Program-made: the position numbers and the translations under genes
In this document: positions 2,291 to 64,000 of the stretch, piece by piece
How positions within the stretch are numbered: position 1 is the first letter of the stretch
Layout: each line of letters starts with the position of its first letter
Notes under the pieces: model-generated
Told to the model about the DNA's origin: nothing
What the model saw: the letters and a program-made list of their open reading frames with translations, nothing else
The model's database searches: none
DNA from: Lampris incognitus
Lineage: Eukaryota; Chordata; Actinopteri; Lampriformes; Lampridae
Length of the DNA: 64,000 nt
Direction: 5' to 3'
Assembly: GCF_029633865.1 (NCBI RefSeq)
Contig: NC_079215.1
Coordinates: 55,269,457 to 55,333,456, forward strand

Positions 2291-2960
2291 TCAAGTCAAT
2301 TTTATTTGTATAGCCCATTGTAAACTACTAATAAGACACGTTAGCCCCTAGCTAATGGGTCTGACCCTTTAGCCGAGCGGTTAGTGATGTCGCCTTGTGG
2401 TGCAGTACACCTCAGTATCGAATCCCGCACCGGGCAAGAAAATAACCGGTTACATTGGTGGCAACGGTGGGATCCGGAAGTGTGCAGATCCTCCGAAGTC
2501 TCTTCGGAGCGCGGGATGACAAAACGCGAGGGCGCGCTTCCGGGGAGGGTGACGACCGTAAACTACTAATAAGACACGTTAGCCCCTAGCTAACAGGTCT
2601 GACCCTTTAGCCGAGCGGTTAGTGATGCCGCCTTGTGGTGCAATACACTCCGTATCGAATCCCGCACAGGGCAAGAAGATAACCGGTTACACCATTATCA
2701 CAAATTAAACATTTGCCTCAAGGGGATTTATAGCAACACAACATCCTGTCCTAATACCCTCGCATCGGATAAGGAACAAATCCCTAAAAAAAAGGCCTTT
2801 TAACAGGGAGAAAAAAAAGAAGCCTGAGGGAGAGCAACAGAGGAGGGATCTCTCCCAAGACCGACAACGTTCAGTGGCTGTTGTGTTTACACAATTTAAT
2901 ACAACAATTGAAGGAGGATAACAGAATTATCAAATATATGAAGAACATGATGAGGAGATC
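2291..2960 (+). repeat. Common teleost interspersed repeat, split by a miniature LTR element
   Basis: The pieces at 2291-2318 (AAGTCAATTTTATTTGTATA) and 2692-2960 (TATCACAAATTA, GCATCGGATAAGGA, AGGAGGGATCTCTCCCA) belong to a high-copy noncoding repeat found throughout fish genomes. It is split by the element at 2319-2691, whose 4-bp target CCAT is visible on both sides. The right limit is approximate. Confidence 0.6.
2319..2691 (+). mobile_element. Miniature LTR retrotransposon (TRIM-like), family 1, complete copy
   Basis: Two direct LTRs of about 135 bp (2319-2454 and 2557-2691) begin TGTAAACTAC and end CCGGTTACA. They flank only about 100 bp of noncoding sequence. A primer-binding site, TTGGTGGCAACGGTGGGAT, follows the left LTR; it is close to the complement of a tRNA-Leu 3' end. 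A purine-rich tract precedes the right LTR. Target duplication CCAT occurs on both sides. It has no coding capacity and looks structurally whole. Each LTR contains a tRNA-like segment (A-box TTAGCCGAGCGGTTAGTG, degenerate B-box TATCGAATCC). The two LTRs differ at few sites, so it is young. Confidence 0.8.
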
Positions 2961-5379: not shown

Positions 5380-5836
5380 GGGCGTCCGGGTGGCATGGCG
5401 GTCTGTTCTGTTACCTACCAGCAGGGGGATCGCTGGTTCGAATTCCCATGTTACCTCCGGCTTGGTCGGGCATCCTTACAGACACAATTGGCCGTGTCTG
5501 CGGGTGGGAAGCCACACGTAGGTATGTGTCCTGGTCGCTGCACTAGCGCCTTCTCTGGTCGGTTGGGGCGCCTGTTCATGGCAGAGGGGGAACTGGGGGG
5601 AATAGCGTGATCCTCCCACGCACTATGTCCCCCTGGCGAAACTCCTCACTGTCAGGTGAAAAGAAGCGGCTGGCGACTCCACATGTATGGGAGGAGGCAT
5701 GTGGTAGTCTGCAGCCCTCCCTGGATTGGCAGATGGGGGTTGGAGCAGCGACCGGGACGGCTCGGAAGAGTGGGGTAATTGGCCGGATACAATTGGGGAG
5801 AAAAGGGGGGCAAACCCCCCCCCCCAAAAAAGAAAA
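5380..5836 (+). mobile_element. tRNA-derived SINE, family X
   Basis: The head (GGGCGTCCGGGTGGCATGGC) is tRNA-like, with an A-box around the GTGGCATGGCGGTCT stretch and a good B-box, GGTTCGAATTCC. A body of about 370 bp ends in GGGGAGAAAAGGGGGG. Three further copies lie at 16502-16965, 44895-45331 and 53405-53774. Confidence 0.8.
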
Positions 5837-9107: not shown

Positions 9108-9643
9108 GTTAAGAGGAGAGATGATGATTATCGAGCAGTAGTATGATTTCACATCACAAAAGAGCACTACAGATGTGATGTTTGCTTTGAGAATGTTGAT
9201 GGACAAGTATAGAGAGGGTCAGAAGGAGTTACATTGTGTCTTTGTGGATTTAGAGAAGGCATATAACAGGGTACTGAGAGAAAAGGTGCAGTATTGTATG
9301 AGGAAGTCGGGAGTGGTAGAGAACAATGTAACAGTGGTGCAAGATATGTATGAGGGCAGTGCGACAGTGGTGAGGTGTGCAGTAGGAATGACAGATGGAT
9401 TCAAGGTGGAGGTGGGATTACATCAAGGATCGGTCCTGAGCCCTTTCTTATTTGCAAGGGTAATAAGATAGGTTGACGGATGAGATCAGGTAGGGGTCTC
9501 TGGTGGACTATGATGTTCGCGGATGACATTGTGATCCGTAGTAAGAGTAGGTAGTAGGTTGAGGAGAGCATGGAGAGGTGGAGAGAACTGGAGCACTGGA
9601 GAGAAGAGGAATGAAAGTCAGTAGGAGCAAGACGGAATACATA

Positions 9644-11270
9644 CAGTGCATCCGGAAAGTATTCACACCCCTTCACTTTCCCCACATTTTGTTATGTTAC
9701 AGCCTTATTCCAAAATGGATTAAATTCCTTTTTTTCCCTCATCAATCTACATACAATACCCCATAATGACAAAGCGAAAAAGGTTTTGTAGAAATTTTTG
9801 CAATTTTATTAATAATAAAAAACTGAAATATTGCATGTACATAAGTATTCACACCCTTTACTCAGTACTTGGTTGAGGCACCCTTGGCAGCGATCACAGC
9901 CTCAAGTCTTCTTGGGTATGAAGCTACAAGCTTGGCACACCTATATTTGGGGTATTTCTCACATTCTTCTCTGCAGATCCTCTTGAGCTCGGTAAGGTTA
10001 GATGGGGAGCATCACTGCACAGCTATTTTCAGGTCTTTCCAGAGATGTTCAAGTCTGGGCTCTGGCTGGGCCACTCAAGGACATTCACAGACTTGCCCTG
10101 AAGCCACTCCTTCGTTGTCTTGGCTGTGTGCTTAGGGTCGTTGTCGTGTTGAAAGGTAAACCTTCGCCCCAGTCTGAGGTCCTGAGCGCTCTGGAGCAGG
10201 TTTACATCAAGGATCTCTCTGTACTTTGCTCCATTCATCTTTCCTTCGATCCTGACTAGTCTCCCAGTTCCTGCCGCTGAAAAACATCCCCACAGCATGA
10301 TGCTGCCACCACCATGCTTCACTGTAGGGATGGTATTAGCAAGGTGATGAGAGGTGCCTGGTTTCCTCCAGACATGACGTTTGGCATTCAGGCTAAAGAG
10401 TTCAATCTTGGTTTCATCAGACCAGAGAATCTTGTTTCTCATGGTCTGAGAGTCCTTTAGGTGCTTTCTGGCAAACTCCAAGCGCGCTGTCATGTGCCTT
10501 TTACTGAGCAGAGGCTTCAGACTGGCCACTCTACCATAAAGGCCTGATTGGTGGAGTGCTGCAGAGATGGTTGTCCTTCTGGAAGGTTCTCCCATCTCCA
10601 CAGAGGAACACTGGAGCTCTGTCAGAGTGACCATCGGGTTCTTGGTCACCTCCCTGACCAAGGCCTTTCTCCCCCGATTGCTCAGTTTGGCTGGGCGGCC
10701 AGCTCTAGGAAGAGTCCTGGTGGATCCAAACTTCTTCCATTTACGAATGATGGAGACCACTGTGCTCTTCGGGACCTTCAAAGCTGTAGACATTTTTTTG
10801 TACCCTTCCCCAGATCTGTGCCTCGATACAATCCTGTCTCGGAGGTCCACAGACAATTCCTTTGACTTCATGGCTTGGTTTCTGCTCTGACATGCACTGT
10901 CAACAGTGGAACCTTATATAGACAGGTGTGTGCCTTTCCAAATCATGTCCGATCAATTGGATTTACTACAGATGGACTCCAATCAAGATGTAGAAACATC
11001 TCAAGGATGATCAGTGGAAACAGGATGACCTGAGCTCAATTTTGAGTGTCACAGCAAAGGGTGTGAATACTTATGTACATGCAATATTTCAGTTTTTTAA
11101 TTTTAATAAATTTGCAAAAATTTCTACAAAACCTTTTTCACTTTGTCATTATGGGGTATTGTGTGTAGATTGATGAGAAAAAAAAGGAATTTAATCCATT
11201 TTGGAATAAGGCTGTAACATAGCAAAATGTGGGGAAAGTGAAGGGGTGTGAATACTTTCCGGATGCACTG
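9644..11270 (-). mobile_element. Tc1/mariner transposon, near full length, inserted in an RTE LINE
   Basis: Both ends carry CAGTGCATCCGGAAAGTATT in inverted orientation. The inverted repeats extend for roughly 200 bp, and each end is flanked by a TA target site (9642-9643 and 11271-11272). At 1627 bp its length is typical of fish Tc1 elements. The minus strand encodes a damaged transposase. Sequence of the host RTE LINE joins directly across the insertion. Confidence 0.95.
9880..10871 (-). pseudogene. Tc1 transposase pseudogene lacking the catalytic glutamate
   Basis: From ATG 10871 the frame gives an N-terminal paired-type HTH (residues 1-70), then WSDETK with the first catalytic Asp (about residue 152) and HDNDPKH with the second (about 243). 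At the point where the family has SPDLNPIEHLW, the reading goes from SPDLN straight into ISGKT and a stop. About 10 bp appear to be missing between two GAAC repeats, which removes the DD34E glutamate and shifts the frame. Downstream the old frame still reads LTELKRICREE and EAVIAAKGASTKY. The copy cannot be autonomous, though its ends may be mobilised in trans. Confidence 0.85.
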
Positions 11271-12175
11271 TATGTGTGAAAAAGAGGGAGGACAGTGGAA
11301 TGGTGAGGATGCAAGGAGTAGAGGTGATGAAGGTGTATGAGTTTAAATACATGGGGCCAACTGTTCAAAGTAATGGAGTGCGGAGGAGAGGTGGAAAAAG
11401 AGAGTGCAGGCAGGGAGGAGTGGGTGGAGAAGAGTGTCAGGAGTGACTTGCGACAGAAGGGTACCAGCAACAGATAAAGGGAAGGTTCACAAGATGGTAG
11501 TGAGACCAGCTACGTTGTATGGTTTGGAGATGGTGGCACAGACAAAAAGACAGGAGGCGGAGCTGAAGAGTTGAAGATACTAAGATTTTCGTTGGGAATG
11601 ACGAAGAAGGACAGGATTCGGGAAGAGTATATTAGAGGAAGGCTCAGGTTGGATGGCTTGGAGACATAGCAAGAGAGTAAAGATTGAGATGCCTTGAACA
11701 TGTGCGGAGGAGAGATTCTGGGTATATTGGGAGAAGGATGCTGAGGTTGGAGCTGCCAGGCAAGAAGAAAGGAGGAAGGCCAAAGAGGAGGTTTATGGAT
11801 GTGGTGAGGGAGGACATGCAGGTGGCGGGCGTGACAGAGGAAGCTGTAGAGCACAGGAACAGATGGAAACAGATGATCCACTGTGGCGACCCCTAACGGA
11901 AGCAGCCGAAAGTAGTAGTAGTAGTAGCAGTGTTACAGGGGTTTCACTTACTTTAACCAATGCTTTAGGTTAGGAAGAAGATTCAGCCAGTTAAGTAACT
12001 ATGTCCTTCATCTTCTCATTAAACTCCTCAAGCTGAAAATTTTGGTGGAAAAAAAAACTGTCATAAATTTTGATTCATACAAATACAAAGACAATAAATG
12101 GAGAAAGCTTAGATAGGAAACATTTTAAAACTGGGCAGTTATTGTAAAAATGAAGTGCATTTAAATCGAGCTCAC

Positions 12176-13726
12176 CTTTTTCTTCAAATTTGCCTTTACA
12201 TCCTCTTCAGTAGTTAGCAGCTTGTCACATTCTGATTCCTGTGTTTCTGGTTTGGCTACCGAGGATGCCATTGGCACCCCCAGACTGCCCAGAGAGCTGC
12301 AGCCCATAGGTGGATTGATAGACTTGCTGGCTTTTTTGAGGGCCCGCTTCTCTTTTCTCTTTTGTGTCCTTCGATTTTTCATGTATTGTTGCCTTTTCTT
12401 GGCCTTCGAAGATTTCTTTAATTTTGTTTCTGATTTTGTAAGATGGATTAGATGATTGTGTTTGGTTCGTGATTGCTGAGTTTTGATGACCGTAAGGCGA
12501 CGTAACTTTGACTGATTTCCATGTTTGCCCTTATTCTTTGCCAGGTTGGGTTTCACAGTCAAGAGAGAATGTGTGAATGACAAGTTTTTCTTGGGCTGAA
12601 GGCAAGGATAAATAAGGTCAGGTGAAGCCGTAGAGCTGGTGAATTGATGTAAGGGATACTGCGAGTAAGGATATGTAGGATGGGAAGGGTAGGGGGTGGT
12701 GGTATGGGTGGTGTGCTGCCAGGCTGAGAGGTTGGCACCATTGAACGCCCCGCTTTGGTAGGCAGCATAACTGTAGTACTGGGCTGAGCTGTATTCTGGA
12801 AATGTAAACTGTGCAGCATGGTGAGGATAAAGACCTGTTGTGTTTTCAAGGTAAGGATTCTCAGCCAGTGAGCTTTCTTTTGAGTTGATTCCATCCACAT
12901 CTCTGTCCCCATTTCCACCCCTCTCTCTGGAGTGACTGATTTCAGAAGTAAGCTTTTCCTTTCTGCTATCCTCAGAGACATTGCTAAGGGAGCGCTGAAC
13001 AGGAGCCAGGTTTGGAATAACGCTGCCAGATACTGCGGTGGAGGAAGAGGAATGCCTGTGAATTCTTTGAGGGCTTGTCTGACATCTATCTCTCTCCTGT
13101 GAGTCATCACCCCTTTGTCCGTCGTCTTCCTTCTTACCGTATAGCCTCTCCTGGGTCCGCTCTGTTAATCTGTTCAGCTCATCTGCATCTATGCTCAACC
13201 CCAAAGTCTCAAGAATGTTCTGCAGCTGTCCCTGTTGCTCCTTTAGCCTCACTTGTCCCTGCTGCTCCTCAAGCCTCACTTCCTTCTCTTCCACTGCCGG
13301 GGGAGACCTCGATCTGCTCCTAGAGCCAAAATGACCACCCCCTTCACCTTCTATCTGGACATACTGCTCATCAGGAAGGTTGTGTTTGTCTTTGTGTGAT
13401 CCCCAATGGTTGAGATGTTCAGCGCTCCTCTCTCTGCTTTTGGATAGACTACAGTCCAGTTGGGGGGCTCCACTGTATGATCCCTGACTCTCACTCTTGG
13501 AGGGTGCCTGTAATGTGCTCTTTAAAAAAGGAGGCTGAGTATGCAAGGGCTCCCCACTCAAAGGGAGGGCTATACTGTCATCATTGACAATTCTGGTGAG
13601 CAGACTGACGTCCACCCCTTTGTTGAGAACGCCGAGGAAGCGTTGAAATCCTTTGGCAACTGTGTTCTCTTCCTCCACTGTTGAGGTAGGGCACTGGCTC
13701 GAAAGGTGTGGTTCAGAATCAGGGAC
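12176..13726 (-). CDS. ZNF318-like gene copy B, large exon
   Basis: The exon runs 517 codons in phase 0 from a probable acceptor (TATGTTTGCAAG, then GTCCCTGATTC) to a donor (AAAAAG then GTGAGC). It carries GFQRFLGVLNKGVDV near its start, an RS motif (SRSRSRSPP), and a helix of about 35 residues ending ERTQERLYGKK. These match in order the human ZNF318 region ending RTQERLHGKK, as remembered. A Tyr/Ser/Pro-rich segment follows, then a very basic C-terminal segment (KKRQQYMKNRRTQKRKEKR) likely to act as a nuclear signal. The U1-type zinc fingers and proline-rich C-terminus of full ZNF318 are not found in the window, so this is a short form. Copy C at 32452-31178 is the paralogous exon. Confidence 0.7.
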
Positions 13727-14011
13727 CTTGCAAACATAGAGATTAAGTGAGCTATTAGGCAAACACTGATGATTTGCTGTAGAGAGCAACCCATCTACCA
13801 CACATTAATGCATGAACCCATGAAGTTATGGCAGCATCCAGGCAGGATTTGTTCATACTTTGTCTGCTTACTCTATCACTTGTGAAGTCCAAAGAATAGA
13901 TTATCACAAAGAAAAGAGCATCATCTTCAGTTTGAAATCTTTTTTAAACTTTTTTTGTATGTAGCTAACCCACATTAGCATTATATGGACAAATTAGAAG
14001 ATTCGGCCCTG

Positions 14012-14142: not shown

Positions 14143-14898
14143 AAGATTCAAGAGGAAGTGCTGTCAAAAAGTCTTACTAAGCAATACGTTCTTTTATATT
14201 AACCCATTAAATCATGGGCATCTTTCTTTTTTACATTTCTAGATGAGCTTGATATGGACTATTATTTAGTAATTTCAAATCAAAACTAGTTCAGTCATCT
14301 ACAAAATTTTCTAATATATTTTTACTTTTCATCCAATATGTGCCCTGAAATTAGACCCTTAGTAGACACCACCTTACCCACTAACATGGCAAGTCATAGC
14401 CATATTATTACAATTCATTTTATGGCAGCCTATTCATATACCTGTTTTGAAGTTCAATTAATTTGTTGATACACTATGCAAGCAATAGTGAGATGGACAA
14501 TGGCTGGTTTGATGAAGTAGTGCTAGCGTTTAACATATCAAAACATACGTACCTCCCCACTTACTTGCGGTGCCCATGAATTACTACATCGTTTCTTCAT
14601 TAACTTCACTCTGAGTTTAAGGGGATGGTCCTCCTGCTTACTCATCTCTGTGAAACTGTTGGCTCCAGTGGATGACTGCACTAGAGACTTTAGGACCATC
14701 ACAGTTAAGGAGACATTTATAAAGCTGTTGAATATGTGCTGTGGAACACAGCTGTGCTAAGAACACTAATAAATATATACATTGTGTTACATTTAAACCA
14801 TGGTAGATGGGGTAGTTTAGAGGGGGTGAACATCAAAATATTGTGTGGACAAGAATTGTGTTCCAAAAATGTATCTGGTCAATCTGTGCAACACTCAC

Positions 14899-15489
14899 CT
14901 TTGAGGAATGACCTTGAGGCCACCTTCGCTGTAAGATCAAATTCACCCTGTCTCTCAGAGTTGTGCCTTTCTGAGCAGGTGTAGAAACAAATGAAGCTGA
15001 CTTCTTAATAAAGGAGAGAATGTCCCCATTTTCTTTTGTTAACTGTGTGAAGAGCTCATTACTGTTTCCAGACAAGTCAGCTCTACTATGTGAGAAATCC
15101 TTTTCTTCTTCCCCTGTCAATATCAGATGTGACATCTTTAAGAATGGTTCGACTTTTTTCAAACCAATAGCAGCTTTCTTGAGAACAATCTTCTCCTCAA
15201 TCTCTTGAAGCTCTTTCCTTTTCCTTGCCAGCTCCTGGTCTGGAGCACTCAACGTCAACTGATCTCCATTTAGGTCTTGCTCCTTGCCCACAGTGAGGCC
15301 AGCACACTCCTCACTGTATCGCTCATGAGAGGAAGTGTTGTGTAGCTCCCTTTCTAATTGCCATCCCATGCTGGCAGGTGGTTCTTGATGGGCGTGGCTT
15401 CCCCTTTCCCCAGAATCAGCCCATTGTTTTGTTTTGAAATCTCTCTGCGGTCGTCGTGGACTGCTTCCCACACCAATTGGATACATCAT
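14899..15489 (-). CDS. ZNF318-like gene copy B, first coding exon
   Basis: ATG at 15489 (MMYPIGVGSSPRRPQRD) to a donor (AAAG then GTGAGT) after 14899 gives 197 codons in phase 0. This matches the phase-0 start of the large exon at 13726, 1.17 kb downstream. About residues 90-120 form a charged helix containing LARKRKELQEIEEKI and a KKAAIGLKK tail, comparable to the LARRKRE region of mammalian ZNF318. Against copy A the reading frame is preserved despite several indels that are multiples of three, which argues for past coding selection. The RS-rich N-terminal exons present in copy C are absent here. Confidence 0.65.
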
Positions 15490-16372
15490 TTATCCGAGCT
15501 TCCGTTTCAGTTTGTGTCTTTGAGAAATCACTGTATATTATATTGGTGAGCAAAAGTTTTCCACAGGTTTGGTCCAAGGCGGTGCAACGCTATAGCATAC
15601 CAATTTTCTGTATTAAAAACAAACAAACAAACAAACAAGTTGAATTATCCACATTAGTTAGCTGAACAGGTTGACTCGCGACATCTTTAGTTTACGCACT
15701 GAAACGAAGGACAAGACTGTCTCGAGCTCGAGCTAAAACCTTAACGAGTTATGACAATAACCACTAAGCAGAATACCGCAGAAACCAAAGTCAATTAATT
15801 ATCCAGTTAACGCTGTTGTCCGCAGTTTGTTAGCTTCGTATCATAAACCCAAATGTCAACGGGCCACCTGTAGTTGGATATCCGCTGAATTTGTGTTAAG
15901 CTAGCCCACTGATATGTCTACCTACCGAGGCTTGTAAAATGATGGCCGCTCCTCCAGTCTCACCACCGAGAGAGAAAGCTGGCATGACTTCAAAAACGCA
16001 GATGTTATTTTAAGAATAACACACGAGAACGACACGTTTCAAGAGCCATTTGAAGACTCGTTAAATGTGACATTTATCATGTTGTGCCCGACCGGACGAA
16101 AGCTTCTACTTCGGTGGTAAGAAAGAAAAAAGGCAGAAGAAGAAAACCAAAAGGCGACATCGAAGCTACACCGCCACCGCCAGTCCGGAGGACCAATGCG
16201 CACCCTACGCAGCCGCGAGTCTTAACTTTGGTTTCATTTCTCTCAAGGTTTTATTACCCCCCCCCCCCGTTTGTTTTCTAAACGAAACCACAATTATAAA
16301 AAGTCCGACTACACACTAGGTCCAGCATTTGGCCATAGCTTGGACATAATACCGCTAAGTCTTTATGTTCTC
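15490..16372 (-). promoter_or_regulatory. Putative promoter/5' UTR of ZNF318-like copy B
   Basis: Counterpart of the copy A promoter, with the same CCAAT-containing core at about 16183-16202. Short plus-strand frames shared by the two promoters do not behave as codons and are not called genes. Confidence 0.4.
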
Positions 16373-16965: not shown

Positions 16966-17575
16966 CGTGCAGAACATGACGCCAAGCTGCACAGCGTGCT
17001 GACACATTCAAAGAGGCGGGGCTTACTCTGAAAGACAAGTGCCAGTTTGCCATGAAGAAGTCAAGTTCCTCGGGGCATGTCGTCAATGCACAAGGAGTCA
17101 GGGCAGAGCCTGATAAAATCAACGCCATCCTGGGCATGGCGTAACCAAAGGATGTGGCCAATGTCCGCCGTTTTATGGGCATGGTAAACTTTATGAGCAA
17201 TTTCCCCCCCACACTTGCCCGAACTGACAAAGCCACTCAGAGATCTGCTGAGGAACGACAACAGCTGGACGTGGGACACACCACAAAGACAATCATTCCT
17301 GGACACAAAGAAGGAACTCAGTTCAGGAACTGTGTTGGCTCAGTATCGCCCAACACGCGAGACAACTGTGTAAGCCGATGCTTCTTCATATGGTCTTGGT
17401 GGAGTCTTGACACAAAAACAGCCAAATGGACTGTGGCGATCTGTTGTCTTCATTTCTAGGAGTCTCACTACGACGGAACCAAAATATGTACCAAAATATG
17501 CAGAAAAGGAAATCCTTGCTGTGACCTGGGCACGTGAGCGCCTGAGTGGTACTTTAATGGCCTGGACGTCATATT

Positions 17576-17730
17576 GTAACGATCACGAATAAGTGGACTC
17601 GCTAGCCCGTTGGCTAACGGGTCGGACCCATTAGTCGAGCGGTTAGCGATGCCTCCCGCGGCGGACGATACTGGTTCGCGTCCCGGCCGCGGCAGTTCCT
17701 GTGGTTGTGTTGTCCCCCGAATTCGCTACA
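17576..17730 (+). mobile_element. Solo LTR of miniature LTR family 2 (tRNA-like LTR)
   Basis: 155 bp from TGTAACGATCACG to GAATTCGCTACA. It contains an A-box-like TTAGTCGAGCGGTTAGCGAT and a B-box-like GGTTCGCGTCC with a small T-arm stem. Overall order and several blocks match LTR family 1, so the families are related. A second copy of the same 155-bp length lies at 63697-63851. No clean target duplication was found at this copy. Confidence 0.65.
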
Positions 17731-18475
17731 ACATTTTAACAGACTATCCTGTGTAGACATACATAAACCACACATCAAATCATTACATTCTCCTCTTTAA
17801 CCAATGTAAGCCATTTTCTTAATAACAGGTAAGTCAAAGATGTAACGCGAAAATAATTCTGCTACGCGCGCAGCTAACGTCTAACGACATTCTAGCTTAC
17901 GGTAAGTTAGCAAATCAGTTAGCTCATGCTATCCGAACATGTACATGCCGTATAAAAGGATGAAACTCGATTCATTTATCTACATAAAGCTAGAATATAT
18001 AATAAAATTTCATTATCTAGTGGTGAATTTACAGATTATCCCGTGTCAAGGGCAGTAGACGAATGAAAAGACAGACGCACGTAACACTACCCGTCCACTC
18101 TGTACGCTGGAACTAAAATGGCTGCCAAAACACAACTTATTTGGTATGTACGCTTATCTACCACTAGGTGGGAGTATTGACCACAGAACTGGGAATAACC
18201 TCAGCTTCCTGACATCGGTAGAGCATTAAAGCACTCGTTTGCGAAATCTATTTGAACTCTATCAGTAAACGGACTAATGAATATGAAAATATAATATTGT
18301 AAACTACTAATAAGACACGTTAGCCCCTAGCTAACGGGTCGAGCGGTTAGTGATGTCGCCTTGTGGTGCAGTACTCCTCGTATCGAATCCCGCACCGGGC
18401 AAGAAAATAACCGGTTACGATATGAAGGATAGAATACCCTGAATTCGCTACATTGGTGTCAGAAGTGGGATGGTG
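17731..18475 (+). mobile_element. Candidate 3' part of a larger Gypsy-type LTR with primer site (fossil)
   Basis: At 18441-18452 the sequence ends GAATTCGCTACA, the same terminus as LTR family 2. It is followed at 18453-18471 by TTGGTGTCAGAAGTGGGAT, the expected complement of a tRNA-Leu 3' end. This is the layout of an LTR end plus primer-binding site. The left boundary is uncertain, and a family 1 solo LTR is inserted at 18298-18419. It is a fossil with no intact coding region attached. Confidence 0.45.
18298..18419 (+). mobile_element. Solo LTR, miniature LTR family 1
   Basis: Starts TGTAAACTACTAATAAG and ends CCGGTTAC, with the 4-bp duplication ATAT at 18294-18297 and 18420-18423. It is shorter than the 135-bp copies. 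Confidence 0.8.
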
Positions 18476-18647: not shown

Positions 18648-19808
18648 CCAACTGGAGATTTTATGACATCTCATTCTAAATCCAGGGGCATTAATGTGGA
18701 GTTGGTCCCCCCTTTACAGCTTCTTGGAGTGTGTCCGTGGGAATTTTTGCCCATTCATCCAGAAGAGCATTTGTGAGGTCAGGCACTGATGTTGGGCGAG
18801 AAGACCTGGCTCGCAATCTCCGTTCTAGTTCATCCCAAAGGTGTTCGATGCGGTTGAGGTCAGGGCTCTGTGCGGGCCAGTCAAGTTCTTCCACACCAAA
18901 CTCACTCAACCATGTCTTAATGGACCTTGCTTTGTGCACTGGGGCACAGTCATGCTGGAACAGAAAAGGGCCCTCCCCAAACTGTCCCAACAAAGTTGGA
19001 AGCATAGAATTTTCCAAAATGTCTTGGTATGCTGAAGCATTAAGATTTCCCTTCACTGGATCTAAGGGGCCCGGCCCAACCCCTGAAAAACAACCCCATA
19101 CCATTATCCCTCCTCCACTAAACTTTACCATTGGCCCAATGCAGTCAGGCAGGTAACGTTCTCCTGGCATCTGCCAAACCCAGACCTGTCCATCAGACTG
19201 CCAGACAGAGAAGCATGATTCATCACTCCACAGAACACGTTTCCACTGCTCCAGAGTCCAGCGGCAGTGTGCTTTACACCACTCCATCTGACGCTTGGCA
19301 TTGTGCTTGGTGATGTAAGGCTTGCATGCAGCTGCTCGGCCATGGAAACCCATTCCATGAAGCTCCCGGCGCACAGTTTTTGTATTGATGTTAATGCCAG
19401 AGGAAGTTTGGACCTCTGCAGTTATTGAGTCAACAGAGCGTTGGCGACTTTTACGCACTATGCACCTCAGCACTTGTTGACCCCGCTGTGTGATTTTACA
19501 TGTTCTGCCACTTCATGTCTGAGTTGCTGTTGTTCCTAAACACTTCCACTTTTCAACAATACCACTTGCAGTTGACTGTGGAATATCTAGCAGGGAAGAA
19601 ATTTCACTAACTGACTTATTGCAAAGGTGGCATCCAATGACAGTATCACGCTTGAATTCACTGAGCTCTTCAGAACCATCCATTCTTTCACAAATGTTTG
19701 TAAATGCATGAGTAGCTGCTGGATTTTATACACCTGTGGCAATGGGTCTGAATGAAACACCTGAATTCAATGATTAAGAGGTGTGTCCCAATACTTTTGT
19801 TCATAGTG
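18648..19808 (-). mobile_element. Second Tc1-like transposon, one end missing
   Basis: The right end has the inverted-repeat terminus CACTATGAACAAAAGTATTG (complement) next to TA at 19809. The left end lacks the matching repeat: recognisable element sequence begins near 18648 with GGAGATTTTATGACATCTC. It encodes a transposase relic unlike the one at 10 kb. Confidence 0.85.
18691..19684 (-). pseudogene. Tc1-like transposase with an early stop
   Basis: The natural start is the ATG at about 19684 (MDGSEELSEFKRD), followed by an HTH region. A TGA at about 19515 lies where the family has Arg in a K/R-SGR context, a typical CpG-decay change of CGA. Downstream the frame stays open for about 260 residues with all three catalytic positions visible: [14 protein letters not shown] and NRIEHLWDE. 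With one stop and one missing terminus it is a recent but inactive copy. Confidence 0.85.
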
Positions 19809-24240: not shown

Positions 24241-24448
24241 CGTTTTCGTCCCAATCCAGTATATGTCGACCGCCAAATCGAAACCCAACAATCGTGTAAC
24301 CGGTTATTTTCTTGCCCGGTGCGGGATTCGATACTGGGTGTACTGCACCACAAGGCGACGTCACTAACCGCTCGGCTAAAGGGTCAGACCCGTTAGCTAG
24401 GGGCTAACGTGTCTTATTAGTAGTTTACAGTCGTCGCCCTCGCCGGAA

Positions 24449-25200
24449 GCGATATTATGAACCCTACATAGCCCTCGCCAAAATCCCGTACCCTGTCCCA
24501 AATCTCGCGAACGGACGCCGGATTTCCGCTGCGTTGCTAAGGAAACAATCAACTATCAACTCGGTGCGAAGCAAAGCTAACGTTAGCTACCTTCAATTTT
24601 GTAATTTTGTATTTTTCGCAATTTTGGACAGCTGGCTGCTTTTGTAATTTTGGACTGCTGGCTGTCAACAACAGAACGGAGGTAAGTAACGTTAGTTGTC
24701 TGAAAATGAACATATATCTAATAAATAGACTTTCTCACATTTAAGAAAGCTTACATTGAGTATTACATCACGACAGAGTCAAATATGTCATCTTCCTGAG
24801 GGTGGCGCTAATGTGCAAGAGCTGAAGGTGGCGCTAATGTGTAAGACTTGTAAAAGTCATATTACTACAATATAGGAGCTCGTTTTGTTTGTAGTCATGA
24901 TAAGGGGTGAAGTATCCTATGCTCAAACGTGGAGCAAGCAAAGATTGAGTTAAAAACGTTAATGTTGATTGTGGATAACTTAGACAGGTTAAATTGTGGG
25001 TGTACGAGCAAGCAAAGATTGAGTTAAAAACGTTAATGTTGATTGTGGATAACTTAGACAGGTTAAATTGTGGGTGTACAGCGTTTCCTTGATGAGCGCT
25101 AACCCCATAACAACATATTTTCGCGTTGCTACGGTGGCGCACACGTGACAAAGCCAGAAACGGGATTTTGGCGAGGCCTATGTAGGGTTCATAATATCGC
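24449..25200. mobile_element. Mutator-like MITE nested in the miniature LTR element
   Basis: Terminal inverted repeats of about 40 bp begin GCGATATTATGAACCCTACA at each end, with one visible mismatch. The flanking 9-bp sequences TCGCCGGAA and TCCCCGGAA match at eight of nine positions and equal the uninterrupted site in the copy at 2.54 kb. A 9-bp duplication with long inverted repeats points to the Mutator/MULE superfamily. There is no transposase frame. Confidence 0.75.
24932..25079 (+). repeat. Perfect 74-bp tandem duplication
   Basis: 24932-25005 is repeated exactly at 25006-25079 (unit begins GAGCAAGCAAAGATTGAG). It lies inside the MITE. Confidence 0.95.
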
Positions 25201-25540
25201 TCCCCGGAAGCGCGCCCTCACGCTTTGTTCTTCCCGCGCTCCGAAGAGACTTCTGAGGATCTGCACACTTCCGGATCCCACCGTTGCCACCAATGTAACC
25301 GGTTACTTTCTTGCCCGGTGCGGGATTCGATACGAGGTGTACTGCACCACAAGGCGACGTCACTAACCGCTCGGCTAAAGGGTAAGACCCGTTAGCTAGG
25401 GACTAACGTGTCTAATTAGTAGTTTACAATCGTAATCAAGAAGCCAAATGAAATAAAATAAAGCAATCGTCACGTTGTTTCCGTTCCAGTTCCTCACACT
25501 TCCGTTCGCAATTTTTTTCACGTTAACCAAATAGACGAAC

Positions 25541-26260: not shown

Positions 26261-26395
26261 TGTAAACTAGTAATAAGACACGTTAGCCCCTAGGTAACGG
26301 CTCTGACCCTTCAGCCGAGCGGTTAGTGATGTCGCCTTGTGGCGCAGTACATCCCGTATCGAATCCCGCACCGGGCAAGAAAATAACCGGTTACA
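26261..26395 (+). mobile_element. Solo LTR, miniature LTR family 1
   Basis: 135 bp, TGTAAACTAG to CCGGTTACA, with ACAA duplicated at 26257-26260 and 26396-26399. Confidence 0.85.
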
Positions 26396-31177: not shown

Positions 31178-32452
31178 CTATTTAGTTTTCACCTCTGTTA
31201 CAGCCTCCTCCTGTTTAGGTTTTTGTGTGTCAATGACATGCAAACAACGGGGCCTTGACAATGTTTTTGAGTTCGTGGTGGTGTTCCCGGGCAGAACTGG
31301 AAAAGGACTTTGTGATGTCAAGCTCAGATTGAGCTGACGAATGCTATTGCATTGTGGTAATATGGGGCTAGGGCCAAAGGCTGGCCTATGAATATTTGAA
31401 AGAGGAACAGTGGGGTAAGGGATGTGCCTGGGCACATGAGGTGGGATTGGAAGGGATCCGCCACCGATCCCCCAGGAAGGAGAAAATGCAGGCGGCGAGC
31501 AGCTGTATGGTGAGTACTGCTTTAGAGGGTAAGTTTGAATCTGGGGTGCAGGGGGTGGTGCGGACATGTATGTAGTAGGATTAATAGAAAATGAGGTGTG
31601 CAATGCTTCAATTGACTTCTGGGACTTGTTTTCATTGACATTACTGTTAACACCAACATAGGACTGTATGGTTTGTGGTACCTCTACTGTGTCCCTTGGA
31701 GTGTCTAAAGAGTCTCTTCTCATAGAAAGATGCTGAGTAAGCGGGGCAAAACTAGATCTGCTCGATGACAAAGATCTGCTGTGACGTCCTGGGGAGAGTG
31801 TGTTCCTTGTCTCCTCCCTCTCTCCCTTAATTTCCCTGCTCTCATTACACTCTTTCTTCCCATATAACCTCTCCTGAATTCGACTTGACATTTGGCCCAG
31901 CTCATCTAGTCCTAAATCCATGCCAATAGCATGCAGCACATCCCGCATCTGCCTGCACTTCTGCTCATCCTCAGGTCTTATTTGTTTCTTCTCCAATACT
32001 AGTGGGGGGGACCTTGATCTGCTGCTTGAGCTAAAATGACCACGTCCTATGTCGTCGCTCCTTTGCAGAGATATTTCATTAGACAGAGAGCATCTTTGAA
32101 AATCCCCAGGGGATCTATTTTGGCTATGATGCTCAATCCTTTGCCCTTCACTGGCTGGATGGCTGGGGTCGTTTCGCAGAGAGGCATCACTCTGGGATCC
32201 CAGGTTTTCACTCCGATGAAACCCCACACAGTGGCCCTTGGGATGCCTGGCACTGCTGCGAGACCAGGAAGTATCTAAATCATCAGCTACCACAGGATCC
32301 CGACTAACTATCTTGGTGAGCATGTCAACATCCACTCCTTTGTTGAGGATGCTGAGGAAACGTTGAAATCCCTTGGCCGCTGTGTTCCGTGGACCAGCTC
32401 TCCCAGTAAGAGCTGGATCCTGACTGGTGACATCACTTTCAGCCTCAACAAC
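31178..32452 (-). CDS. ZNF318-like gene copy C, exon 3 with stop
   Basis: The acceptor (CCGCCCCATTAG) precedes 32452, and phase 0 gives VVEAESDVTSQDP onward. The motif order matches the copy B large exon: GFQRFLSILNKGVDVDMLTK (protein residues about 320-340), SSSSRSRSPP, a helix ending SSRIQERLYGKK (about 460-495), then a Pro/Tyr/Ser-rich region and LSRPRCLHVIDTQKPKQEEA, which echoes the human ZNF318 segment RPNLRVI...KPKQKE. It ends VKTK and a TAG at 31180-31178. A weak donor (GAG then GTGAAA) just before the stop could give another ending. It lacks the basic tail of copy B. Confidence 0.7.
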   Translation of the reverse strand, partial: VVEAESDVTSQDPALTGRAGPRNTAAKGFQRFLSILNKGVDVDMLTKIVSRDPVVADDLDTSWSRSSARHPKGHCVGFHRSENLGSQSDASLRNDPSHPASEGQRIEHHSQNRSPGDFQRCSLSNEISLQRSDDIGRGHFSSSSRSRSPPLVLEKKQIRPEDEQKCRQMRDVLHAIGMDLGLDELGQMSSRIQERLYGKKECNESREIKGEREETRNTLSPGRHSRSLSSSRSSFAPLTQHLSMRRDSLDTPRDTVEVPQTIQSYVGVNSNVNENKSQKSIEALHTSFSINPTTYMSAPPPAPQIQTYPLKQYSPYSCSPPAFSPSWGIGGGSLPIPPHVPRHIPYPTVPLSNIHRPAFGPSPILPQCNSIRQLNLSLTSQSPFPVLPGNTTTNSKTLSRPRCLHVIDTQKPKQEEAVTEVKTK

Positions 32453-32568: not shown

Positions 32569-32956
32569 GGGTCCGCGGTGGTGTAGCGGTCTAAGCATCG
32601 GCTTTGTGTCGATGCAGTTGCCCACTGGGGACCGGGGTTCGTGCCCCGGTCTCGTCAGATCCGACTATGGCTGGACTCGATGAAGCAGCAATAATTGGCA
32701 ACGCTGTTTTCGGGAGGGGGGCGGAGTCGGCTTGTGTTCGTCACATTAACGTGTCTATGTGTGTGTCGAATAAAGCAGTGGTTCGGCCTGGATTCGCCTT
32801 GTCATGAAAGTGGCGAAGCGTCTCCTTTGAGACTGCCGGCCGGAGAGATGCAGTTGGCGAACGTATGCAGTACGAGGGTGGGTGTTTGAACTAAAATAGG
32901 GATCGATTGGCCACTAAATTGGGAGAAAAATCAGAAATAAAATTATTAAAAAAAAC
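32569..32956 (+). mobile_element. tRNA-derived SINE, family Y (forward copy)
   Basis: The head, GGTCCGCGGTGGTGTAGCGG, is tRNA-like with B-box GGGGTTCGTGCCCC. The tail ends at ATTGGGAGAAAAATCAGAAA plus an A-rich run. Direct repeats AAAACAAAACTGAATT flank it at 32553-32568 and 32957-32971. Confidence 0.85.
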
Positions 32957-32971
32957 AAACAAAACTGAATT

Positions 32972-33360
32972 TTTTTTACAAATTTATATCTGATTTTTTC
33001 CCTTTTTCTCCCAATTTAGTGGCCAATCGATCCCTATTTTAATTCAAACACCCACACTCGTACTACGTGCATTCGCCAACTTCATCTCTCTGGCTAGCAG
33101 TCTCGAAGGAGACGCCTCGCCACTTTCGTGACAAGGCGACTCCAGGCCGAACCACTGTTTTTTCCGACACACCCAGAGACGCATTCATGTGACGAACACA
33201 AGCCGACTCCGCCCCCCTCCCGAAGACAGCGTTGCCAATACCGCTGCTTTGTCGAGTCCGGCCATAGTCGGATCTGACGAGACCGGGGCGCGAACCCCAG
33301 TCCCCAGTGGGCAACCGCATTGACAAAGCCGATGCTTAGACCGCTACACCACCGCGGACT
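32972..33360 (-). mobile_element. tRNA-derived SINE, family Y (inverted copy)
   Basis: Same family in reverse: the tail is at 32972-33020, and the head complement AGTCCGCGGTGG ends at 33360. A third copy of the direct repeat AAAACAAAACTGAATT follows at 33363-33378, so the two SINEs lie tail to tail with one shared target sequence repeated three times. Both are in intron 2 of copy C. Confidence 0.85.
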
Positions 33361-43871: not shown

Positions 43872-51860
<7,989 letters not shown>

Positions 51861-57319: not shown

Positions 57320-57540
57320 GGACACACAGATTGGAAGTAAACAGACAGGTCAAAAGTGAGCAAACAATGTCGAGACAGTCGTACATTAAATCACTCATCA
57401 ATCAGACACTCAGCAGGGAGCGGGGGCACATTAAACTCACCGAAAGGACACTACTGGTTAAACAGCAAAAATACAACATTTCTTTGCAGCTTTAACTGCC
57501 ACTGAAACACTGTTCCACGTAGCCGGCATCCTGCAGCTAA

Positions 57541-58375
57541 CCCTCCACAGCACCGTCAACTCACGCTAATAAAGCAAAACATTTTAAAAATGTTTTTAAA
57601 AAAATTTTTTAAACATTTTTTTACATTTTAAAAACATTTTAAACTGTTAAAAAATTTGAAAAACAAGTTTAAAAAAATTACAAAAAACAACCCTCCACAG
57701 CAAAGTCAGCTCACGCTAATAAAGCAAAACATTTTAAAAAATGTTTTAAATTTAAAAAAAACATTGTTAAACTGTTAAAAATTTTGAAAAACAAGTTTAA
57801 AAAATTACAAAAAAGCAACCCTCCACAGCAATGGCAGCTCACGCTAATAAAGCAAAACATTTTAAAAAATGTTTTAAATAAAAAAAAAACATTGTTAAAT
57901 CTTAAAAATATTTTAAAATGTAATTTTTTTTATACAATTTAAAAATATATGCAAAAAACAACCCTCCACAGCAATGTCAGCTCACGCTAATAAAGCAAAA
58001 CATTTTAAAAAATGTTTTAAATAAAAAAAAAACATTGTTAAATCTTAAAAATATTTTAAAATGTAATTTTTTTTATACAATTTAAAAATATATATACAAA
58101 AAACAACCCTCCACAGCAAAGTCAACTCATGTTAATAAAGCAAAACATTTTAAAAATATTAAAAAAACAATTTTTTTAAACATTTTTTAATTTTAAAAAC
58201 ATTTTAAAATGTCAAAAAAATAAAAATGACAAAAAAACAACATCCACGACCCTCCACTGCAAAGTTAACCCACGCTAATAAAGCAAAACATTGTAAAAAG
58301 GTTCTTTAAAAAATGTTGAAACATTTGTAAATTTTAAAAACTTTTAAAATAAAAAAAAAACTCTCTACAAACATA
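57541..58375 (+). repeat. AT-rich minisatellite, six units of about 128-150 bp
   Basis: Units start with CCCTCCAC at 57541, 57691, 57819, 57962, 58107 and 58250. Each opens with CCCTCCACAGCAAAGTCAGC and TCACGCTAATAAAGCAAAAC or close variants, then has an A/T-only second half of variable length. Units 3 and 4 are nearly identical, showing recent local duplication. No coding content. Confidence 0.9.
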
Positions 58376-62845: not shown

Positions 62846-64000
62846 CAGTGTCGGCGCTACGGGGGGGCATTGGCCGGGCCTCGCCCCCCCAAATGAAAGT
62901 TGTGCCCCCCCCACCAATTACCCAGTGATGATGTGAAAATTAGTACTTAAACATCATGTAAAAATTAAAATTAATTAATGCACATATCACATTTAAATAC
63001 ATAATCAATAATAATAATAATCAATGAAATAAAATGCTTAAATTTCGTGTTTGTGGAGGAGCGGGGTTAGCAGGACACCGGAGCGGAACATCAGTGCGTG
63101 ATTTTGTCCCTTCAGGTGGCAATTGCGTGTGACACACAGGAAAGGGATACTTTAAAAACGTGGCAAAATCGACTGGGCTAGCTAGCTAACTGTAAAATCA
63201 TGATGGATATAAGAAAGTGGCTTTGTCGTGGTCCAAACAACAAGTCTACACCAGCAGAAAGAGAAAGGACAGATGCTGCAACAACACCCCAGAAAACAGT
63301 TGGGGCCGAGGCGGTGCAACAAGCCAAGATAGTGCCGTTAACACCTCAGCGACTGCTGTTGGTCAAGTGGAGCCTATCAACCACCCCCTCCCCTCCATTC
63401 CCCATCGGCTGCTTCTGCTGCTCTGGCGCCGGGACTGTTGCCAGAGCAGGCCCCTGATGATCTTGGCAATGACAACCCAAACCACGTGATTTTAGAACGC
63501 TTGCACAAGGGTAAAAGACGCTCGTTTGTTAGCGCAAATGGCCACAGCATTCACGTTAAAGGAAAAACGCCCATTCGAGTTTGACAACTTCGCAGCTCGC
63601 ATGACTATTTTAGAGATGGTTTGCTAAAAATACAAGGCGGTTTACTTGGTCAGAGGCGAGTGCTGCACGTTGTTTGTTAACGACGTTCCCCAGCATTGGA
63701 AAAAATGGATAAGACGACACGCTGGCCGCTGGCTGGCGGGTCTGACCCTTTAGTCGAGCGGTTAGCGACGCCACCTGCGGTGCGGGCGATACGGGTTCGC
63801 GTCCCGGCCGCGGCAGTTCCTGTGGTTGCGTTGTCCCCCGAATTCGCTACAGTATTGTGGGGAACACGCTGTCAGGCGTGGCTGTTTTGAAGCAGGCGCC
63901 TCGTCACAGGTCTGCGCGAATTCTGACGGGTGCTTAGTTTGAAGACGTTGCTTTAAATTCGTAACTTAGTTGTGGAGTGTTACACTTGCTCAACAGTGGC
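62846..64000 (+). mobile_element. hAT transposon (ZMYM1-like transposase), left part, interrupted by a small LTR
   Basis: It begins CAGTGTCGGCGCTACGGGGG, a typical hAT terminus with G/C-rich inverted runs to about 62910. An ORF starts at 63200 with MMDIRKWLCRGPNNKSTPAE. Near 63400 the frame shifts, and the downstream frame reads PDDLGNDNPNHVILERLHKG before a stop at about 63580. These resemble the N-terminus of hAT/ZMYM1-like transposases in fish. The family 2 LTR at 63697-63851 is inserted; the far end lies beyond the window. Confidence 0.55.
63697..63851 (+). mobile_element. Solo LTR, miniature LTR family 2
   Basis: 155 bp, the same length as the copy at 17576-17730. It shares CTGGCTGGCGGGTC, TTAGTCGAGCGGTTAGCGA, GGGTTCGCGTCCCGG and the terminus GAATTCGCTACA. 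The T-arm-like stem CGGG/CCCG around TTCGCGT is intact. The flanks GCAT and GTAT are an imperfect 4-bp pair. Confidence 0.65.

Follow-up and report, generated by a model that had tools for sequence, protein, structure and literature searches.

A probable Helenus-type miniature LTR retrotransposon with tRNA-like promoter motifs in its LTRs in the opah Lampris incognitus

Positions 2319-2691 of a 64,000-nucleotide stretch of DNA (the window) from the opah Lampris incognitus, of the order Lampriformes in Acanthomorphata, hold a short element whose flanking repeats carry motifs like those of an RNA polymerase III (Pol III) promoter. The question is what kind of element this is: a miniature LTR retrotransposon (TRIM) with a tRNA-like module in its LTRs, as an earlier note on this DNA had proposed, or an ordinary tRNA-derived SINE. 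The boundaries given in that note are exact, and on the window sequence this plus-strand copy (copy A) is a full-length LTR element of 373 bp with the following parts:

2315..2318, no strand: left target duplication CCAT of copy A (right CCAT at 2692-2695)
2319..2454, plus strand: 5' LTR, 136 nt; box A at 2370-2380, box B-like element at 2415-2425
2455..2556, plus strand: non-coding interior, 102 nt; primer site at 2456-2473
2557..2691, plus strand: 3' LTR, 135 nt; box A at 2608, box B-like element at 2652

The LTR ends of copy A are TGT...ACA, and the TG...CA ends described before stand except that its 3' LTR starts with CG. A primer site lies immediately 3' of the 5' LTR in both complete copies of the window (A and B, the latter described below), reading TGGTGGCAACGGTGGGAT in copy A, where 17 of 18 bases match the 3' end of a tRNA-Leu; the tRNA-Leu-type site claimed beside the LTR is borne out. 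At 2542-2549, 7 nt upstream of the 3' LTR, there is a short purine-rich tract, GGGGAGGG, with GCGAGGG as its counterpart in copy B. The longest stop-to-stop frame overlapping copy A has 74 aa, and translated searches returned no spurious proteins spanning this TRIM or copy E, an LTR-like copy of a second family. Among the patterns tried, copy A has neither TATA, nor AATAAA/ATTAAA, nor a T4 run; as 3178 of 5000 random sequences are also free of T4, this last absence permits read-through and proves nothing.

In the window, this family (family 1) is present in four insertions, the number given before: two complete elements, one of them split, and two solo LTRs. Copy B, on the minus strand at 25428-24295, is the second complete insertion and is interrupted by a nested 752-bp inverted-repeat element, while C and D are the solo LTRs:

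25294..25428, minus strand: 5' LTR of copy B; box A at 25377, box B-like element at 25333; CGAT at 25432-25429
25201..25293, minus strand: interior of copy B, first piece, including the primer site at 25292-25275
24449..25200, minus strand: nested element in copy B, 752 bp, outside the TRIM proper
24430..24448, minus strand: interior of copy B, last piece
24295..24429, minus strand: 3' LTR of copy B; box A at 24378, box B-like element at 24334; CGAT at 24294-24291
18298..18419, plus strand: solo LTR C, in which 13 nt at box A are deleted; ATAT flanking on both sides
26261..26395, plus strand: solo LTR D; box A at 26312 with one mismatch, box B-like element at 26356; ACAA on both sides

Each of the four insertions is flanked by an exact 4-bp target duplication (CCAT, ATAT, CGAT, which is ATCG on the other strand, and ACAA), precisely those listed in the earlier note, and none of the four has a simple-repeat tail. 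The first interior piece of copy B, with the primer site within it, is 94.7% identical to copy A over 95 columns. With the 5' LTR of copy A as query, the other five LTRs are recovered at E values of 1e-38 to 1e-63, showing that the paired and repeated structure is not chance. For none of the four sites does the window contain a second copy spanning the insertion point, i.e. an empty target site. In viral contigs, exact-pattern searches with the LTR core, the junction of LTR and primer site, and the Gypsy junction gave no match; in prokaryote contigs there was none for the LTR core or the primer site, both collections being without fish genomes. The nested element has inverted ends of about 41 bp (41 of 45 bases matching), a 74-bp unit present twice in tandem, and a duplication of 9 bp that is identical but for one base (TTCCGG[G/C]GA).

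The strong recent activity suggested for the family finds no support in the LTR pairs. The two LTRs of copy A differ at 9 of 135 sites and by one inserted base (two-parameter distance 0.071), and those of copy B at 6 of 135 sites (0.053, one base beyond the LTR included). The neutral rate in fish is a few 1e-9 per site per year, at which the insertions of A and B are estimated to be millions of years old, not recent. In addition, the 5' LTR of copy A is nearer to the 3' LTR of copy B (4 differences) than to its own 3' partner.

The motifs in the LTR are as follows. In copy A, box A is TAGCCGAGCGG at 2370 and the box B-like element is GTATCGAATCC at 2415, 45 nt apart in the 5' LTR and 44 nt in the 3' LTR, in accordance with the spacing of about 45 nt reported before. 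Box A agrees exactly with TRGCNNAGYGG in both LTRs of A and of B, has one mismatch in D and is deleted in C; the pair with its 44-45 nt spacing is thus present in five of six family-1 LTRs. While box A keeps TRGCY...YGG, the box B-like element is off the consensus at 2 of 11 positions, with GTATC replacing GGTTC. We counted pairs on both strands by a rule requiring an exact box A and, 30-70 nt from it, a box B with no more than 2 mismatches: six pairs in the window qualify, i.e. four family-1 LTRs, one SINE and one other, against 2 in total in 20 random sequences of 64 kb drawn from an order-1 Markov model, and the four family-1 matches, belonging to one family, are not independent. No column of the six family-1 LTRs is variable in the 17 nt around box A, part of which is a gap in C, or the 16 nt around box B; this invariance is not counted as evidence, since the bounds were set afterwards and the differences within LTR pairs post-date insertion.

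As for likeness to a whole tRNA, ARAGORN finds no tRNA structure in the whole window. Covariance-model scoring of the LTR, proposed before as a check, gave no support: Rfam has no tRNA match at E<=10 around copy A, the 3' LTR of copy B, E or F, a search that the tRNA-headed SINE of the window also fails. The family-1 module is not recognisable as a tRNA, and it is from the motifs that we infer both its derivation from a tRNA and the transcription of the family-1 LTRs by Pol III.

Kojima (2024) named TRIMs with tRNA-like LTRs Helenus, or TRIMp3, and included fishes among the hosts (PMC10886601). By this source TRIMs are under about 1000 bp and encode no proteins, with one Helenus member of 1263 bp; Helenus elements have a primer-binding site (PBS), a polypurine tract (PPT) and, in animals, 4-bp target duplications, in lengths of 311-1263 bp; vertebrate members are primed by tRNA-His, -Leu or -Lys; few families could encode a tRNA, most retain GGTTC in box B, and Pol III transcription is expected but unproven for the published members (PMC10886601). 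The element at 2319-2691 is very likely a non-autonomous LTR retrotransposon, a TRIM of the Helenus type. The sequence itself displays the paired LTRs, TG...CA ends, primer site, 4-bp duplications, solo LTRs, lack of a long frame and the box A/box B-like pair, and the element agrees with the published definition in tRNA-like LTRs, PBS, 4-bp duplications, tRNA-Leu and length. Against the Helenus assignment are the missing tRNA structure, the family-1 box B without GGTTC, and the purine tract, which is short and 7 nt off. For such an element, Pol III would begin transcription in the 5' LTR, immediately upstream of box A, and its transcript would cross the interior, which has no T4 run, and extend into the 3' LTR or beyond it; the first T run in the flank of copy A is at 2798. 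First-strand synthesis would be primed by tRNA-Leu, with reverse transcriptase and integrase supplied in trans by a Gypsy-type element, perhaps one whose lineage resembles that at 18441-18471. Integration would duplicate 4 bp, and later recombination between the LTRs would produce solo LTRs.

The window also has two further LTR-like copies, E and F, and a Gypsy-type LTR end:

17575..17730, plus strand: E, LTR-like copy of a second family, within a broken RNase H frame of Gypsy type; imperfect duplication ATAT/ACAT
63697..63851, plus strand: F, LTR-like copy of the second family; imperfect duplication GCAT/GTAT
18441..18471, plus strand: Gypsy-type LTR end GAATTCGCTACA and tRNA-Leu-type primer site; candidate helper lineage

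E and F are 87.5% identical over 144 aligned columns, with 3 of 4 bases matching in each duplication, and we take them to be older than the family-1 copies, with the form of solo LTRs, and to make up a related second family. The best matches listed between E/F and the family-1 LTRs (copy C aside) extend over 54-75 columns at 78-83% identity and take in box A with about 35-40 nt upstream; the best scores 69.8 bits, and 200 shuffles of F reach 26.5 bits at most. E and F have their own 3' half with their own box B, GGTTCGCGTCC, which contains GGTTC and lies 41 and 43 nt from box A. The left flank of E matches PF17917 (RNase H) at 1.7e-12, and its right flank reads ILTDYPV, which we take as the continuation of the RNase H frame. 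The last 12 bases of E and F, GAATTCGCTACA, occur three times in the window, with no other occurrence at up to one mismatch. Immediately after the third, at 18441-18452, comes TTGGTGTCAGAAGTGGGAT, a primer site of tRNA-Leu type as in A and B, with 17 of 18 bases matching the tRNA-Leu end. The 537 nt from 17757 contain TATAAAA (17951) and AATAAA (18001), as in an LTR used by RNA polymerase II (Pol II); an all-against-all comparison found no second copy of this stretch in the window, and its left end is not delimited. We read positions 18441-18471 as the terminus of a Gypsy-type LTR whose lineage is a candidate helper, with no coding region tied to it. A coding candidate would have an LTR ending in GAATTCGCTACA or AACCGGTTACA ahead of a tRNA-Leu-type primer site. 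According to Kojima, Gypsy is the inferred helper of animal Helenus, and helpers should use Pol II and need no long LTR sequence in common with TRIMp3 (PMC10886601).

Both LTR families have in common a possible RNA structure at box A:

2335..2391, plus strand: hairpin over box A, 57 nt (counterparts in E at 17595-17653 and in F at 63715-63772)

In both families 57-59 nt that include box A and the stretch before it fold as a single long hairpin, the upstream stretch being roughly the reverse complement of the part that holds box A. Folding z-scores of five sequences are -3.9 for the 5' LTR of A (A5), -2.3 for the 3' LTR of B (B3), -0.4 for D, -4.8 for E and -3.7 for F. Stretches of the window with like G+C content are at least as stable in 0 of 540 cases for E and 1 of 160 for F, and in family 1 in 7 of 1046 for A5, 161 of 856 for A3, 36 of 1046 for B5, 43 of 662 for B3 and 226 of 662 for D, so that the hairpins of A3 and D are no more stable than many such stretches. 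All 7 differences between the families that fall within the 19 consensus pairs preserve pairing (chance about 0.02 if they are treated as transitions), while outside the hairpin pairs 4 of 7 changes are transversions. No pair is changed on both sides, and column shuffles gave no covariation signal. Versions of the hairpin slid along the alignment pair 26-53% of cells versus 93% for the structure itself, which was derived from the same sequences on which it was scored, C being omitted owing to its deletion. The predicted hairpin, strong in E and F and variable in family 1, is suggestive only. A role at the 3' end of the RNA is our guess, proposed because the LTR has no T-run terminator.

Together these observations lead us to a tentative suggestion, which we would sooner expect to fail than to hold: that the opah has two or more related TRIM families of the Pol III type, with a common tRNA-like module and box A hairpin, and that at least one of them shares only the last bases of its LTR, the integrase end, with an adjacent, recognisable Gypsy helper driven by Pol II. 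If this were true, the LTR end and the primer site would have to match the helper while the promoter would be replaceable, and the hairpin would represent a new functional component of these LTRs, e.g. in termination without a T run or in strand transfer. The window also yields a concrete candidate pair with which to ask how a Gypsy helper recognises Pol III TRIMs.

The reading as a Helenus-type TRIM has to be weighed against others, of which the most serious keeps the TRIM as described and has it transcribed by Pol II, the box A/box B-like pair being a relic or a chance likeness. It would fit the lack of any tRNA model match, the two deviations in the 11 positions of box B and an LTR without a T4 terminator. 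We nevertheless hold it to be improbable: by the patterns tried, the family-1 LTR has no TATA or AATAAA-type signal, whereas the nearby Gypsy-type LTR has both; box pairs are as rare in random sequence as the simulated 64-kb sequences show; and the second family retains the pair even though its box B differs. A good deal less probable still is that the tRNA-like LTR is that of an autonomous Gypsy element, with the 373-bp copies as its internal-deletion derivatives. The identity of the family-2 LTR ends with the end of the nearby Gypsy-type LTR speaks for such a descent, as do primer sites of a common tRNA-Leu type; yet the stretch before that end is otherwise unmatched to these LTRs in the all-against-all comparison and carries Pol II signals, both complete copies share the short interior, and no long element with the family-1 LTR is present in the window.

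The last explanation is the one that the earlier note had named as its own refutation, an ordinary tRNA-derived SINE, moved by a LINE, with two neighbouring copies imitating paired repeats. Only the 44-45 nt between the boxes is reminiscent of a tRNA SINE. A second LTR and primer site missing and a repeat tail present is not the pattern of the window, where two insertions are paired and have the primer site, two are solo and none is tailed; moreover, the 4-bp duplications are exact in every insertion, the same interior stands between the LTRs of two independent copies (A and B), and about 50 nt precede box A. We accordingly give this explanation practically no weight, and the element does not belong with the tRNA SINEs (SINE2).

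Besides these elements, the window contains other repeats. A tRNA-headed SINE family is found at 5399-5810, 44923-45324, 16961-16519 (minus strand) and 53774-53429 (minus strand), the last copy having exact boxes A and B 44 nt apart; 32571-33359, a near-palindrome (87%), reads like two opposed tRNA-headed SINE copies with boxes A and B 55-57 nt apart. A Tc1/Sleeping Beauty-like transposon at 9639-11275, with inverted repeats of about 224 bp that are 96% alike, includes a Tc1-like frame of 294 aa (10029-10913, minus strand) with HTH_SB, HTH_Tnp_Tc3_2 and DDE_3, and another Tc1-like frame is at 18691-19512 (minus strand). The frames at 12161-13804 and 31178-32452 (both minus strand) are related and have an AKGFQRFL...LNKGVDV motif in common. 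The former, of 547 aa, has its best match in an uncharacterized Lampris incognitus protein (99% identity across 96% of the frame), followed by score by a second protein of this species (86%), one of Centroberyx gerrardi (44%) and those of other acanthomorphs; relatives of the frame in several fishes carry the name zinc finger protein 318-like. A long repeat is present in two copies, 76-88% alike, at 1-2201 and 14221-16350, the second ending where a broken Gypsy reverse transcriptase-like frame begins by our own reading (Pfam match none). At 57539-58375 lies an AT-rich tandem array whose units measure about 128-150 bp.

As a kind, TRIMs with a tRNA-type promoter are not new, having been named Helenus (PMC10886601). 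The chordate hosts in Table 1 of that paper are coelacanth, sterlet, paddlefish and Ostariophysi, and its fish members include LTR-11_DR, Helenus-1_CaAu and LTR1_LCh (PMC10886601). No Helenus in acanthomorphs appeared by title or opening of the abstract among the literature matches listed, the subscription literature, Repbase and the supplements of PMC10886601 being outside their scope. We provisionally regard the opah element as a new Helenus member in a host lineage missing from that Table 1 (PMC10886601). If it is a Helenus, it would extend tRNA-promoter TRIMs to an acanthomorph order. In annotation, TRIMs of this sort are readily mistaken for SINEs or tRNA genes.

Compared with Helenus, judged by the published description and not by a consensus sequence, the opah element is alike in being a short TRIM with a box A/box B module in the LTR, a PBS, 4-bp duplications and a tRNA-Leu type of primer, and unlike in its family-1 box B without GGTTC; the hairpin over box A is not mentioned in the available part of the Helenus description (PMC10886601). 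The tRNA-headed SINE of the window has boxes A and B 44 nt apart as well, but, as we read its alignment, it lacks LTRs and a primer site and has the tRNA-like part at its very start. Cassandra is a plant TRIM with 5S rRNA in its LTR, where its terminators also lie (PMC10886601). The opah element does not belong to it, Rfam giving no 5S match at the gathering score in the window or at E<=10 in 2300-2720, and it differs in being tRNA-like rather than 5S-like and, in copy A, in having no T4 run. The analogy drawn in the earlier note was nevertheless right on anatomy: as in Cassandra, a Pol III-type promoter module lies inside the LTR of a miniature element.
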